Source: Progne subis subis (taxonomy: Eukaryota; Chordata; Aves; Passeriformes; Hirundinidae). Taken from it: 64,000 bases of DNA. Positions 25,804 to 39,050 of this stretch are shown one piece after another (position 1 is the first letter of the stretch; every line of letters starts with the position of its first letter). Below the pieces are notes generated by a model. It worked only from the letters and a program-made list of their open reading frames with translations, made no database searches and was not told where the DNA came from. The stretch spans positions 4,207,872 to 4,271,871 of the forward strand of contig JAKJHU010000056.1 of the NCBI GenBank assembly GCA_022316685.1. Reading direction: 5' to 3'. The translations under genes and the position numbers were made by a program.

Positions 25804-26002
25804 TCCACATACACAAGCTCTAGGCAAATGGAGCATTTTTTCCCTTTTTTCCCTCTCATCTAAGGTATTCCTGTTTACAAATGGCACATCACACTGCAAG
25901 GGTCCACATACACAAGCTCTAGGCAAATGGAGCATTTTTTTCCCCTTTTTTCCCTCTCATCTAAGGTATTCCTGTTTACAAATGGCACATCACACTGCAA
26001 GG
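25804..26002. repeat. 99 bp tandem duplication
   Basis: Two near-identical copies, 25804-25902 and 25903-26002, both starting TCCACATACACAAGCTCTAG. They differ mainly in the length of the T/C tract. The near identity marks it as a recent duplication. Confidence 0.93.
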
Positions 26003-27095
26003 TTCCATATTGCTCACTCTCCTCTAGCCCACCTGGTGAACGAGAGGCATCACTGCAGGAGGGGACATGAAATAGCCCCTGTATACCAGGGCAGCCCCTT
26101 TAACAGGTTCAGTCAGTCCCCACGAAACATTTTGGCGAGGTTGGATAGATGTCACAAAGTGAGATCACTCCACACATTACACTCAACTTGTCCTGGTATC
26201 CCACTGCTTGCTTCAGGGCTGTGATTTCTTGTCCAGAACTGCTCATAGTAGTAGTTATCTTCTGACAGAAAAGGCAGGAAATCCTCTGTAGTAAGGAATG
26301 TGTGGGTTTTCACATGCTGTCTCCGCTTTGTTCACAGTTTGCAGGCAATTTAAAAGCAGCTATTGAAGATACCAAGGCAGGCTCTGCCTGTTATGTGAAA
26401 AGCTTTTATGAAAACAAAACCTTGGATAAGATTGGCAGGGGGGTATTTCACAGTGCTGAACATCCATAATTTTAACCAACTATACTTTAAATAATACCTT
26501 TTTTTAACCTGTCATACGAAGCAGTGCCTGAGAATATTCCCAGCACTTCAGAAACCCGGTGCAGCATTTAACTCCTCTCTTCCGAACGGCTCTTTCCGCA
26601 CAGATTGATTCCCCAAATCTGCTTTTTGACAGGAGGGAGGGCTGCCTTGAAAACAGTGCAAAGTACATAAACCTCAGAGCAAGATGTATGTGCCCATTCC
26701 AGCACTGCCCAGCTGCTGTGGGACCTCTTCACTTTGTGATTTAGAAAGCACTTCCATGCTATCGACACTTGCAGATAACAGAAATCAGCTGTATGTTTGC
26801 AGCCTGGTGGTGTGCAGACAGGTTTTTGTCTGGACTTTGGGTTTCCAAATTCAACTGTTTTTGGAGAAGTGAGGAGCCATTAAAAAGCAGCAAAGTTTAA
26901 TTTGGGAAGACAAGCCAAATCTCACGCTTACAGCCAGTGAAGGGGTGGAGGATGCTTCTGGTTGTGAATGCTTGAAACTGTCCTAGTGCAAGAATCAAAC
27001 CCACCCAAGAGAGCATGGACACGTGGCCTTTCAAGAACAGGGAGCACAATATATGACTTGAGAAGGATAAAAAAATGCTAATTACAGGTGAAAAT
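26003..27095. other. Gene-free sequence
   Basis: No supported exon and no repeat recognised. Confidence 0.5.
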
Positions 27096-35177: not shown

Positions 35178-35837
35178 TGTCCTAGGGTAACTTTATGATG
35201 CTTGTATCCCCAATCGTCTGTTCTGTTTGGACTCTCTATATTGAGTCCTGTGCCTTTAAGACTGGTTCTAAGAGCAAGGAGAAGCGCGGAGTTTGTTTTG
35301 AGAAAACTGCCTGACTCCTCCACATTCTTCTGCGGACGGTGTTCGGCAGAGGCTTGGAGAGACTGCAGGACAGAGATCTTTTTGCTTTTAGTTAGTTTCA
35401 GCTAGCTAGGGCAGAGAAGTTCCCTGGACTGTTTTTTTTCTTTCTTTTTTCTTGGAACTGTTTAAACCTGCTCTGGACTGAAAACCCAGGGGAGCACTGG
35501 GGGCTGCACCTGCGGCCCACCGGGGCCTGGAGCTCGGCATTTTCCAGCAGCGCCGGAGGGACTGGGACTGAGGAGAGACTGAGAGAGAGCCGAGCTCCAC
35601 CCACGGCAAGGACTTTCTCAATTTACCATCTCACTCCAGAACGAGAGGTTTTATTGTTTCATATTATTCATTCTTTATACTTGTATGCACTTTATTTGTT
35701 TAGTAAAATAGCTTTTTCCACTTTTCTCCACAAAGGTTTTTTTTTTCGGACTGGTTGGAGGGAGGGGCCACTTGGGTTTGCTTCCCAGAGAGATCCTATA
35801 CAGGGGTTTTCCCCAAATTTGTCTCCAAACCAGGACA
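35178..35837 (+). mobile_element. 5' LTR of the endogenous retrovirus
   Basis: A 660 bp LTR beginning TGTCCTAGGG and ending CCAAACCAGGACA. The primer binding site follows ten bases later. It aligns over its whole length to 38390-39050. Its G-rich segments are intact, in contrast to the 3' LTR. It is preceded by CCCAA (35173-35177), the left copy of the target duplication. Confidence 0.95.
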
Positions 35838-35847
35838 TACCCTTAAT

Positions 35848-35865
35848 TGGCGCCCAACATGGGGC
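35848..35865 (+). promoter_or_regulatory. Retroviral primer binding site, lysine tRNA type
   Basis: TGGCGCCCAACATGGGGC matches the complement of a lysine tRNA (Lys1,2) 3' end at 17 of 18 positions as I know that sequence. The one difference is an A where G is expected. Confidence 0.8.
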
Positions 35866-36419
35866 AAAAGAGAGTAGAAAAAACTTGTATTACTATTAAC
35901 TGCATTTTTTATTGTTGTTGTTGTTGTTGTCGTTGGGTAGGGATTAAACAGACAGTGGCCATGTTGCTTCTTGAAGTCCTAACGTCTCTTAGAATAGAGT
36001 CTTTTCTGCATTTCTGTTCCCTAGGCTTTTTTGAAGTCTTAATACCTTTCTGGTCCCTAGGTTTGTTTTCCTACCCAGAAATAGCTCCAATATTGTCCTT
36101 AACATACAGCTTTTACACTAAGGATGCACAAATTAGAATAGTTATTTTGCTAAGTTCAGTGATTATGGCTTACAAGAAGCTTATAAAGATACTGGAGTTT
36201 GTTCTGGGTATGTTCAGTTTATGGTTTTTTCGTCCTACCCTGCGTCCTAGTTCCAGCAGCATGTTTTAGGGATTTATCAATAACTGCACCCAGTTTGTTA
36301 GAGAAGGAGTAGGGGATGAGGCTCTTCAGCCTCTTTTTTCCTTCTTCTCTTTTAAGTCAGTTACATCACTTTTAGAGAATGTTCAGGGTCTCCTGAATGT
36401 TAAAGACCCCACCTCTCTA
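35866..36419 (+). pseudogene. ERV leader and unassigned 5' internal region
   Basis: Leader of the provirus with a (GTT)n stretch at about 35913-35932. A 140-codon open frame (35847-36269) is rich in hydrophobic residues, and I do not recognise it as matrix, capsid or nucleocapsid. Confidence 0.5.
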
Positions 36420-36926
36420 GTGTTTCACCTGGTGACTTTCCTCTATATAGCTTATAGCTTTTCTAGAATGAGTCACACACTGCTAAACACTGTAAAGCAG
36501 CAGATAGAGGCAAGGGAGCAGGGAGATAAATCAGTCACTCAGGCTGCAGCCAACCCCACAGCTATTCAGGCTGCAGCTAAACCAGACAGTAAAGTTAAGA
36601 CACCGGCAGTTGCTGCAGTAAAGAAGGGAAAGAAGCACACGGACAAAACCGATCGACCAGTAGATGATGATTCAGGTGAAGAATCCTCAGTGCCTCCTGA
36701 CACCCAGTCAGGAGTCAAACCACCTGACACACAATCAGAAGCTGAAGCAACTGATGATACACAGTCAGAAGCTGAACCAACTGATACAAAATCAGAAGCC
36801 CAACCAACTAGTACAAGATCAAGAGTCCAACCAACTAGCACACGATCAGAAGCCCAACCAGCTGCTACAAGATCAGGAGCCCAACCAACTGCCAGCAGAA
36901 GAAACTTGCTACGCTCTTTTCACTGA
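36420..36926 (+). pseudogene. Gag-position ORF of the ERV, with nonapeptide repeats
   Basis: A 168-codon open frame in the place of gag. It has a hydrophobic start, an alanine/lysine-rich middle, an acidic patch (DDDSGEESS), then repeated nine-residue units of the form DTQSEAEPT that become arginine-rich towards the end. No zinc knuckle (CCHC) was seen, so it is at best a truncated or unusual gag product. It overlaps the pol frame, which is also open through the repeat. Confidence 0.5.
36699..36890 (+). repeat. 27 bp tandem array inside the ERV
   Basis: Seven units, six of 27 bp and one of 30 bp, with a shared core like ATCAGAAGCCCAACCAACT. Both the gag-position frame and the pol frame remain open across it because the unit length is a multiple of three. 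Confidence 0.9.
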
Positions 36927-38238
36927 CGGTTCCTGCCGCATCGTAGGAATGAAACGAAAGTAGAAAGCAGCCGTATAGAGCCCCACACGACAGGTTGCAC
37001 AAGCCACTGAAAGAGAAAGTAAGTCAAGCCAACTTGCTGAACTCAAAGCTGTTCAACTGGCCCTGGACATTGCTGAAAGAGAGAAGTAGCCAAAGCTCTA
37101 CCTCTACACTGATTCGTGGATAGTAGCTAATGCTCTGTGGGGATAGTTGGAGAAGTGGAAAAAGGCCAATTGGCAGCGCAGGAGAAAGCCAATCTGGGCT
37201 GCAGATGAGTGGAAGGACATTGCCACTCAGGTAGAGAAGCTACCTGTCAAAGTCCGTCATGTAGATGCCCATGTCCCCAAGAGTCGGGCTAATGAAGAGC
37301 ACCGAAACAACGAGCAGGTAGATCAAGCTGCAAAGATAGAGGTGTCAAAGATAGACTTAGATTGGCAACACAAGAGAGAGTTGTTCCTAGCTCGATAGGC
37401 CCATGATGGCTCAGGCCATCAGGGCAGAGATGCCACCTATAAGTGGGCCCGAGACCGAGGGGTGGATCTAACCATGGACAGTATTTCTCAGGTTATCCAT
37501 GACTGTGAGACGTGTGCTACCATCAAACAGGCCAAGCGGGTGAAGCCCCTATGGTATGGCGGGCGATGGTCCAAATATAAGTATGGAGAGGCCTGGCAGA
37601 TTGACTACATCACCCTTCCCCAAACCCGCCAAGGCAAGCGCTACGTGCTGACCATGGTAGAAGCCACAACTAGATAGCTAGAAACCTACCCTGTGCCTCA
37701 CGCTACTGCCCAGAACACCATCCTGGGCCTTGAAAAGCAAGTTCTTTGGAGGCATGGTACCCCTGAGAAGATTAAGTCAGACAATAGAACTCATTTCAAA
37801 AACAGCCTCATCAACAACTAGGCTAAAGAACATGGCATTGAGTGGGTGTACCATATCCCCTATCATGCACCAGCTTCAGGGAAGGTAGAAAGATACAATG
37901 GACTGCTAAAAACCACCCTGAAAGCACTAGGTAGGGAATCATTCAAAAATTGGGAACAGCATCTAGCAAAGGCCACCTAGTTAGTTAACACCCAAGGTTC
38001 CACCAACCGAGCAGGCCCTGCCCAATCTGAGCCCCTACATACAGTAGATGGAGAGAAAGTCCCAGTAGTACATGTAAGAGGTTTGTTAAGGAAGACAGTT
38101 TGGATCAATCCTGCTTCAAGTACAGAGGATCCCATCCGTGAGATTGTCTTTGCTCAGGGGCCAGGCTGCACATGGTGGGTAATGCAGAAAGATGGAACCA
38201 CACGATGTGTACCCCAGAGAGATTTGATTGTTGGGTGA
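36891..38238 (+). pseudogene. ERV pol remnant: RNase H and integrase, broken by eight TAG stops
   Basis: One continuous frame covers RNase H (FTDGS near 36920, the ELKAV segment about 37040, YTDSW about 37115 and VDAHV about 37263). Integrase follows, with the zinc-binding H-H-C-C residues (CETC at about 37504-37515), first catalytic D near 37605, second D near 37785 and catalytic E near 37890. It closes with a TGA at 38236. The frame is interrupted by stops at 36961, 36976, 37087, 37144, 37396, 37675, 37819 and 37978, all TAG. No frameshift was seen. Protease and reverse transcriptase are absent, since the frame passes directly from the repeat array to RNase H. It cannot encode a working enzyme as it stands. 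Confidence 0.9.
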
Positions 38239-38364
38239 GAACCGTGTGTAATTATCATTGTGTGCTGAATAGTACTGCCACTGTATGTAGTTGTATATTG
38301 CATATTGTTTTTATATAGATGTATGTGTGTGTAGAGCTAGAGTATATATAAGTTTTAGTAAATT

Positions 38365-38389
38365 GACAATATGGGGATAAGGGGTGAAA
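38365..38389 (+). promoter_or_regulatory. Polypurine tract of the ERV
   Basis: A purine-rich stretch with GGGGATAAGGGGTGAAA directly before the 3' LTR start, the expected plus-strand primer position. Two pyrimidines interrupt it. Confidence 0.65.
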
Positions 38390-39050
38390 TGTCCTAGGGT
38401 AACTTTATAATGCTTGTATCCCCAATCGTCTGTTCTGTTTGGACTCTGTATATTGAGTCCTGTGCCTTTAAGACTAGTTCTAAGAGCAAAGAGAAGCGCG
38501 GAGTTTGTTTTGAGAAAACTGCCCGACTCCTCCACATTCTTCTCCAGACAGTGTTCAGCAGAAGCTTAGAGAGACTGCAAGACAAAGATCTTTTTGCTTT
38601 TAGTTAGTTTCAGCTAGCTAAGGCAAAAAAATTCCCTGGACTGTTTTTTTTCTTTCTTTTTTCTTAGAACTGTTTAAACCTGCTCTGGACTGAAAACCCA
38701 AAAGAGCACTGGGGGCTGCACCTGCGGCCCACCGGGGCCTAGACCTCAACATTTTCCAGCAGCGCCAGAAGGACTAAGACTAAAGAGAAACTGAGAGAGA
38801 GCCGAGCTCCACCCACAGCAAAGACTTTCTCAATTTGCCATCTCACTCCAGAACGAGAAGTTTTATTGTTTCATATTATTCATTCTTTATACTTGTATGC
38901 ACTTTATTTGTTTAGTAAAATAGCTTTTTCCACTTTTCTCCACAAAGATTTTTTTTTTCAGACTAGTTAAAAAGAAAAGCCACTTAAGTTTGCTTCCCAG
39001 AGAGATCTTATACAGGAGTTTTCCCCCAAATTTGTCTCCAAACCAAGACA
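38390..39050 (+). mobile_element. 3' LTR of the endogenous retrovirus, heavily G-to-A changed
   Basis: A 661 bp LTR beginning TGTCCTAGGG and ending CCAAACCAAGACA. It is followed by CCCAA (39051-39055), the right copy of the 5 bp target duplication. Against the 5' LTR I count about 45 positions with G in the 5' and A in the 3' copy, and only about seven other changes including one A-to-G. The changes cluster in AGGGGAG-like and GGAGGGAGGGG-like segments, where all but the last G of a run become A. Confidence 0.95.

Follow-up and report, generated by a model that had tools for sequence, protein, structure and literature searches.

G-to-A hypermutation concentrated in the 3' LTR of endogenous proviruses of a songbird, Progne subis subis

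Results

The window, that is, the whole stretch of 64,000 nucleotides of Progne subis subis DNA that was analysed, contains a provirus bordered by two copies of a target-site duplication (TSD; Table 1). Its LTRs have the termini TGTCC...ACA and measure 660 (5') and 661 bp (3'). The LTR spacing is 3212 in this provirus versus about 6000 in three pairs of the same family, and about 2.8 kb of the internal region is missing compared with longer family copies, the break lying near 36892-36899. The pol frame is interrupted by several stop codons of the type that G-to-A editing of the kind described below produces, and the top two named matches of the integrase piece are songbird sequences. Elsewhere in the window (25836-26010) there is a 74-nt direct repeat, whose two copies are 96% identical and separated by 101 nt.

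Table 1 Features of the provirus, with the proportion of GG sites edited
Feature	Position in window	Strand	Remarks
Left target-site duplication CCCAA	35173..35177	+	5 bp, matches right copy
5' LTR, essentially unedited	35178..35837	+	1/53 GG sites edited
Internal region, intermediate editing	35838..38389	+	42/179 GG sites edited
Primer binding site (PBS)	35848..35865	+	taken here to be of tRNA-Lys type
RNase H fragment of pol	37147..37395	+	PF00075, E 5.4e-5, under Pfam cut-off
Integrase fragments	37399..37977	+	separate stop-free pieces; PF17921, PF00665, PF13683, each under Pfam cut-off
Purine-rich tract preceding 3' LTR, presumed PPT	38373..38389	+	function inferred from position
3' LTR, hypermutated	38390..39050	+	45 G-to-A vs 5' LTR; 37/54 GG sites edited vs family
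Unedited island of 3' LTR (LTR 322-350)	38711..38739	+	0/8 GG sites edited
Right target-site duplication CCCAA	39051..39055	+	

From the 5' to the 3' LTR, the alignment gives 45 G-to-A changes, one A-to-G, one C-to-G, one T-to-C, two G-to-C, one C-to-T and one inserted C. The original prediction, which counted about 45 G-to-A, one A-to-G and about six other differences, agrees with this tally (45, 1, and 5 substitutions plus one indel), and the contexts that it gave for the edited sites (about 35 GG, seven GA, two GT and one GC) are reproduced exactly: by next base, the G-to-A rates are 35/54 for GG, 7/50 for GA, 2/28 for GT and 1/33 for GC. Overall, 45 of 165 G changed to A versus 1 of 147 C to T (Fisher p = 3.7e-13), and a Hypermut-style test of the LTR pair with the GRD context gave p = 5e-7. 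C-to-T changes, whose equal frequency had been named as grounds for rejecting editing, are thus nearly lacking. The excess of plus-strand G-to-A over both C-to-T and A-to-G (45 vs 1 and 1) and the dinucleotide preference for GG, then GA, with GT and GC rare, are those of a hypermutated provirus. The best reading of the LTR difference is a strand-specific C deamination of minus-strand cDNA, as originally claimed, which is supported by the 45 G-to-A against 1 C-to-T, by the GG context and by the G found at these sites in the family. The further claim that the last G of a run survives holds for the edited runs and fails for a block of G runs at LTR 322-348, which is untouched. Within the 3' LTR of the window, edited and unedited GG sites did not differ significantly in position (p = 0.10).

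The direction of change was established from other members of the family. The assembly (1.17 Gb, 2896 contigs) was searched with the 5' LTR, and the best 40 of 2791 first-look candidates were scored, all with at least 98% identity. Thirty loci including the window were fetched, so that 29 of the 39 remaining scored matches make up the comparison set, among them the 5' LTR of the second haplotype of the locus. At 38 of the 45 edited sites all 29 LTRs have G; of the remaining seven, six have A in one to three copies and the seventh has T in three. The 5' LTR is consequently the unedited partner that it had been taken for. When the edited 3' LTR was the query, the second haplotype matched at 99% and the next sequence at 93% (best 40 of 2611 candidates), without any trace of the A-rich master subfamily that had been envisaged as a possible objection. 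The second haplotype corresponds to contig C2, which is 98-99.5% identical over the stretches read, flanks included, and whose 3' LTR has 45 of the 45 changes. Because the LTRs of the family have G and the pattern recurs elsewhere only in this second haplotype (among the best 40 of 2611), the 3' LTR is the changed member, most simply through one event that predated the divergence of the haplotypes. Sites 161, 171 and 277 of the 5' LTR differ between haplotypes; since 161 and 171 are preceded by C, CpG decay is a likelier source of these two polymorphisms than conversion.

The internal region was polarised with 10 family copies for each half and sites were counted only where both haplotypes agree, a filter that removed a change in the PBS seen in the window haplotype only. 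It has 55 G-to-A changes, 2 C-to-T and 1 A-to-G. The edited GG sites number 13/54 in the first part and 29/125 in the second, and there are sharp steps between the 5' LTR and the first internal part (p = 0.0009) and between the second internal part and the 3' LTR (p = 2e-8). Inside the internal region a 5'-to-3' gradient is absent (Spearman p = 0.26), and just 3 of 29 GG sites are edited in the final 400 internal bases, far under the level of the 3' LTR.

The block at LTR 322-347, whose 8 GG sites are all unedited in the window, is also spared elsewhere: in the 3' LTRs of 12 other edited proviruses (see below), 2 of its 96 GG sites are edited versus 205 of 572 other GG sites (p = 2e-14). It contains a GGCCC/GGGCC hairpin with a 5-bp stem and a 4-base loop, and may have been shielded either by this hairpin or by RNA that was still paired. 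Folding was rejected as a general reason why sites escape editing: the pairing predicted for the minus-strand LTR shows no correlation with the editing rate in the 12 other loci (Spearman 0.02), and in the window unedited GG sites are only marginally more paired than edited ones (p = 0.03 for folding at 37 C and 0.07 at 42 C). Robust sparing is limited to this block.

The original prediction, which gave no reason for the change being confined to one LTR, had treated the locus as a single case and called for a comparison with other LTRs of the family. Sixteen other LTR pairs, picked by their likeness to the unedited 5' LTR and thus leaning to unedited copies, served as control: their sum of 15 G-to-A, 19 C-to-T and 17 A-to-G is unbiased, some of these pairs being copies of one locus according to their flanks and 5 having unmatched or partly matched TSDs. 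Twelve of the 14 sequences ranking next in the search with the edited LTR were fetched, and 11 of them proved to be hypermutated (9 distinct loci by flanks), with 15-36 G-to-A and 0-2 C-to-T each; the twelfth, L062, has 5 G-to-A. After the addition of 13 more LTRs, two more pairs and the LTR partners, 14 pairs were scored; left out were C1268 (unmatched TSD), C2563 and C511 (partner LTR not found) and L017 (no partner).

Over the resulting 13 hypermutated proviruses, window included, 133 G-to-A changes are shared by both LTRs, 187 are found only in the 3' LTR and 9 only in the 5' LTR. Twelve loci lean toward the 3' LTR, one is tied and none leans toward the 5' LTR (Wilcoxon p = 0.0005), the 3'-only/5'-only counts per provirus being 45/1, 8/0, 6/0, 11/2, 11/0, 29/0, 4/0, 15/0, 1/1, 7/2, 13/0, 13/2 and 24/1. 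The edits of the 5' LTR are therefore nested in those of the 3' LTR over these 13 loci, as in the mouse Mtv proviruses discussed below. Eight of the 13 have an exact 5-bp TSD and together count 102 3'-only versus 6 5'-only edits; in the other five the TSD matches at 4 bases, or at 3 of 5 in C1446. Since C2823 and C1846, which were retrieved via the 5' LTR alone, are also 3'-heavy (5'-only/3'-only 0/11 and 2/13), the 3' excess was not made by the choice of the query. Departures from the pattern are C890a, which is tied (1/1), and L045/L019, which is opposite (10 5'-only and 0 3'-only edits), with 19 other differences and a 4-bp TSD match. C1268, whose TSD matches at 0 of 5 bases, is balanced (9 3'-only vs 8 5'-only), as expected if its LTRs were not born together. 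All 30 pairs, window and L045/L019 included, have 207 3'-only and 31 5'-only edits; the LTR asymmetry is general in this retrovirus family.

Shared and 3'-only edits have similar sequence contexts, and the shared ones lie somewhat closer to the 3' end of the LTR (p = 0.03; 14 pairs, C1268 included), a placement that is suggestive only. The editing level of the internal flanks differs among the other edited loci: on the PBS side, the edited GG sites are 0/14 in C2321, 0/16 in C224, 0/20 in C2699, 2/28 in C2798, 2/21 in C1224, 6/27 in C2090 and 17/24 in C1446, and on the PPT side 17/26 in C2823 and 6/27 in C1846.

Some other features of the family were observed along the way. Two PBS types coexist with nearly identical LTRs: a tRNA-Lys-like PBS in the window, L006, L046, L069, L070, L072, L074, L089 and L093, and another type (TGGCGCCTACTG...) in L064, L066 and L071 as well as in 16 out of the 18 other 5' LTRs examined, which suggests a primer switch. 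The pairs L015/L039, L030/L041, L012/L038 and L079/L090 have LTRs about 6 kb apart and flanks without TSD, and are probable recombinant proviruses. Three LTR pairs are free of substitutions (L006/L014, L047/L010 and L049/L022, of which the last two have the same flanks and possibly represent a single locus), so the family was recently active.

A search of the assembly with the APOBEC_N profile, in which 11 candidates were scored, gave seven matches above the cut-off and one below. They correspond to APOBEC2 (contig C2491), to four exon pieces on contig C1112 that we take to be AICDA, and to two single exons on the same contig (L096 and L097; 7.712-7.725 Mb), 10-22 kb from AICDA. L097 matches the APOBEC1 of Locustella ochotensis with 88% identity and 84% query coverage, and its named matches through rank 46 (among the best 120 of 146) are passerine; judging from its sequence, it is clearly an APOBEC1. 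L096 is more diverged (best profile SNAD4; 78 bits to APOBEC1) and would less certainly be a second APOBEC1-like exon. Both contain HAE and PCxxC, which make up the deaminase motif. No APOBEC3 locus was found by this search of 11 scored candidates in the assembly, in which a gap is possible. The hotspots of AID are WRC on the edited strand, i.e. plus-strand G before C or T, and the window LTR pair does not fit such targeting, with 3 of 61 GC/GT sites edited versus 42 of 104 GG/GA sites. Because no APOBEC3 was found and the context argues against AID, APOBEC1 is, by elimination, the leading candidate for the editor. PMC3880073 reports the A1 proteins of zebra finch and anole, of which that of anole mutates DNA.

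Discussion

The 5' LTR of a retrovirus is copied from plus-strand strong-stop DNA, itself templated by the minus-strand LTR, and the latter is displaced once the second strand transfer has occurred. It is highly probable that, in two phases of this process of reverse transcription, cytidines of the minus-strand cDNA were deaminated by a host enzyme acting on single-stranded DNA. During the first, the minus strand would be exposed after the action of RNase H and before plus-strand copying. This phase would be brief in the LTR, where plus-strand strong-stop DNA is soon being made, and the edits that precede this synthesis would be copied to both LTRs; at the window locus there are at most 2 shared edits, one of which is missing from the 5' LTR of the second haplotype. 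During the second phase, we infer that the transfer displaced the minus-strand LTR and left it bare again, so that later edits would reach the 3' LTR alone (45 in the window provirus), the 5' LTR being spared as it derives from the earlier strong-stop DNA. The nesting of 5' in 3' edits would follow because the strong-stop copy precedes displacement. As for the enzyme, we infer that it was most likely an APOBEC1-like protein.

Several observations speak against this two-phase mechanism: the lack of an internal gradient, the 3/29 GG sites edited just upstream of the 3' LTR, the reversed L045/L019, the tied C890a and the five of 13 proviruses without an exact 5-bp TSD. If editing depended simply on exposure time, it should be high before the 3' LTR, so that one has to assume additional plus-strand starts or some other form of protection. 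Discontinuous plus-strand synthesis is known for avian retroviruses and could have covered this low-edited stretch. In addition, some of the shared edits could have come from a parent element that had itself been edited before.

Other scenarios may be imagined for this asymmetry, which is strand-biased, context-dependent and polarised, occurs in both haplotypes and shows nested edits over 13 loci. Both LTRs could have been edited, with gene conversion or ectopic recombination later replacing the 5' LTR by the sequence of an unedited family copy. In favour, there are many family members (2611-2791 candidates at first look), the unmatched TSDs of some LTR pairs indicate that recombination occurs, and at LTR positions 59, 155 and 448 it is the 3' LTR that has the family majority while the 5' LTR deviates. 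Nevertheless, this scenario seems improbable, as the combination of variants of the 5' LTR occurs in 0 of 43 other copies compared, as does the pair 535C and 614A that both window LTRs have in common, and conversion would need to have affected only 5' LTRs in 12 of 13 loci while keeping the shared edits.

We consider marginally less probable still an intermolecular second transfer, in which the plus-strand strong-stop DNA would come from the cDNA of the co-packaged RNA and the 5' LTR would represent an unedited sister. PMC9278108 proposes such a route for HIV-1 proviruses whose 3' LTR is deleted and whose 5' LTR is intact, and the same route could account for the few variant differences at the window locus. 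Yet, an edited sister would at times give 5'-only edits, and these number 9 versus 187 3'-only ones, with the shared edits nested; moreover, differences other than editing are 0-3 in 10 of the 13 edited pairs, the exceptions being the window (5), C224 (9) and C1846 (17). Lastly, direction is unobtainable from two sequences alone, and a change from A to G in the 5' LTR (e.g. ADAR editing) or its neutral decay might have been considered; practically no weight can be given to either, as they are already refuted by the G at these sites in family copies, the 1/147 C-to-T and the balance of the 16 control pairs.

Both the phenomenon and its explanation are already known from mouse Mtv. The excerpts of PMC12548423 (J Virol 2025) describe a 3' LTR-specific Apobec3 hypermutation in Mtv17, 21, 61 and 62, weaker in a few MLV proviruses, for which the displaced minus-strand 3' LTR is given as the cause, and which was by then unreported for other retroviruses. 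The four Mtv proviruses have 13, 16, 2 and 9 differences, and their 3'-only changes are in U3 except two. According to these excerpts, both systems have G-to-A changes that the 5' LTR lacks, others common to both LTRs, runs of consecutive edits and the same proposed cause. Unlike the mouse proviruses, whose editing is ascribed to Apobec3, those studied here belong to a passerine, have a GG context, reach 45 edits in one LTR, involve 13 loci, and have edits across the LTR with a spared block. Apobec3 as editor is not borne out in the searched assembly, where the locus could have fallen in a gap.

In birds, APOBEC-edited LTR retrotransposons were reported by Knisbacher and Levanon 2016, cited here through passages of PMC6523648, PMC6497032 and PMC12548423. 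The strong G-to-A clusters in songbird ERVs are alike; the passages that cite this work do not speak of comparing the 5' and 3' LTRs of one provirus. Among the literature searched, in which Knisbacher and Levanon 2016 is represented by citing passages and PMC12548423 by excerpts, the latter alone describes 3'-LTR-specific G-to-A editing. Graded hypermutation is known from the polypurine tracts of HIV-1 (Suspene et al. 2006, via a passage of PMC7760323). There as here, the minus-strand position affects the editing level, which is attributed to exposure; unlike in HIV-1 as described in that passage, the LTRs here contrast with the internal region, within which there is no gradient. What is new is the songbird host, with no APOBEC3 locus found but an APOBEC1 and a second APOBEC1-like exon by AICDA, together with the larger number of loci and the spared LTR segment.

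Conclusions

We lean slightly toward the view of a passerine without APOBEC3 in which an APOBEC1-like deaminase would have an APOBEC3G-like role, with the displaced minus-strand 3' LTR as the late target of much of the LTR editing, a record of two time points (shared versus 3'-only edits) in each provirus and an LTR stretch that was physically shielded. Editing of the 3' LTR only is no mouse oddity, and it recurs with an editor that is probably other than APOBEC3. The timing of editing becomes measurable from genomes alone, shared edits having been made before and 3'-only edits after plus-strand strong-stop synthesis. The finding also carries a warning for LTR dating: 51 of the 660 aligned bases of the window pair differ, and 6 once the 45 edits are subtracted, so that the apparent age of this provirus is inflated about eight-fold. 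Since, as reported second-hand in PMC6497032, hypermutation signals are stronger in oscine passerines than in the other vertebrates surveyed, further songbird proviruses could be misdated.
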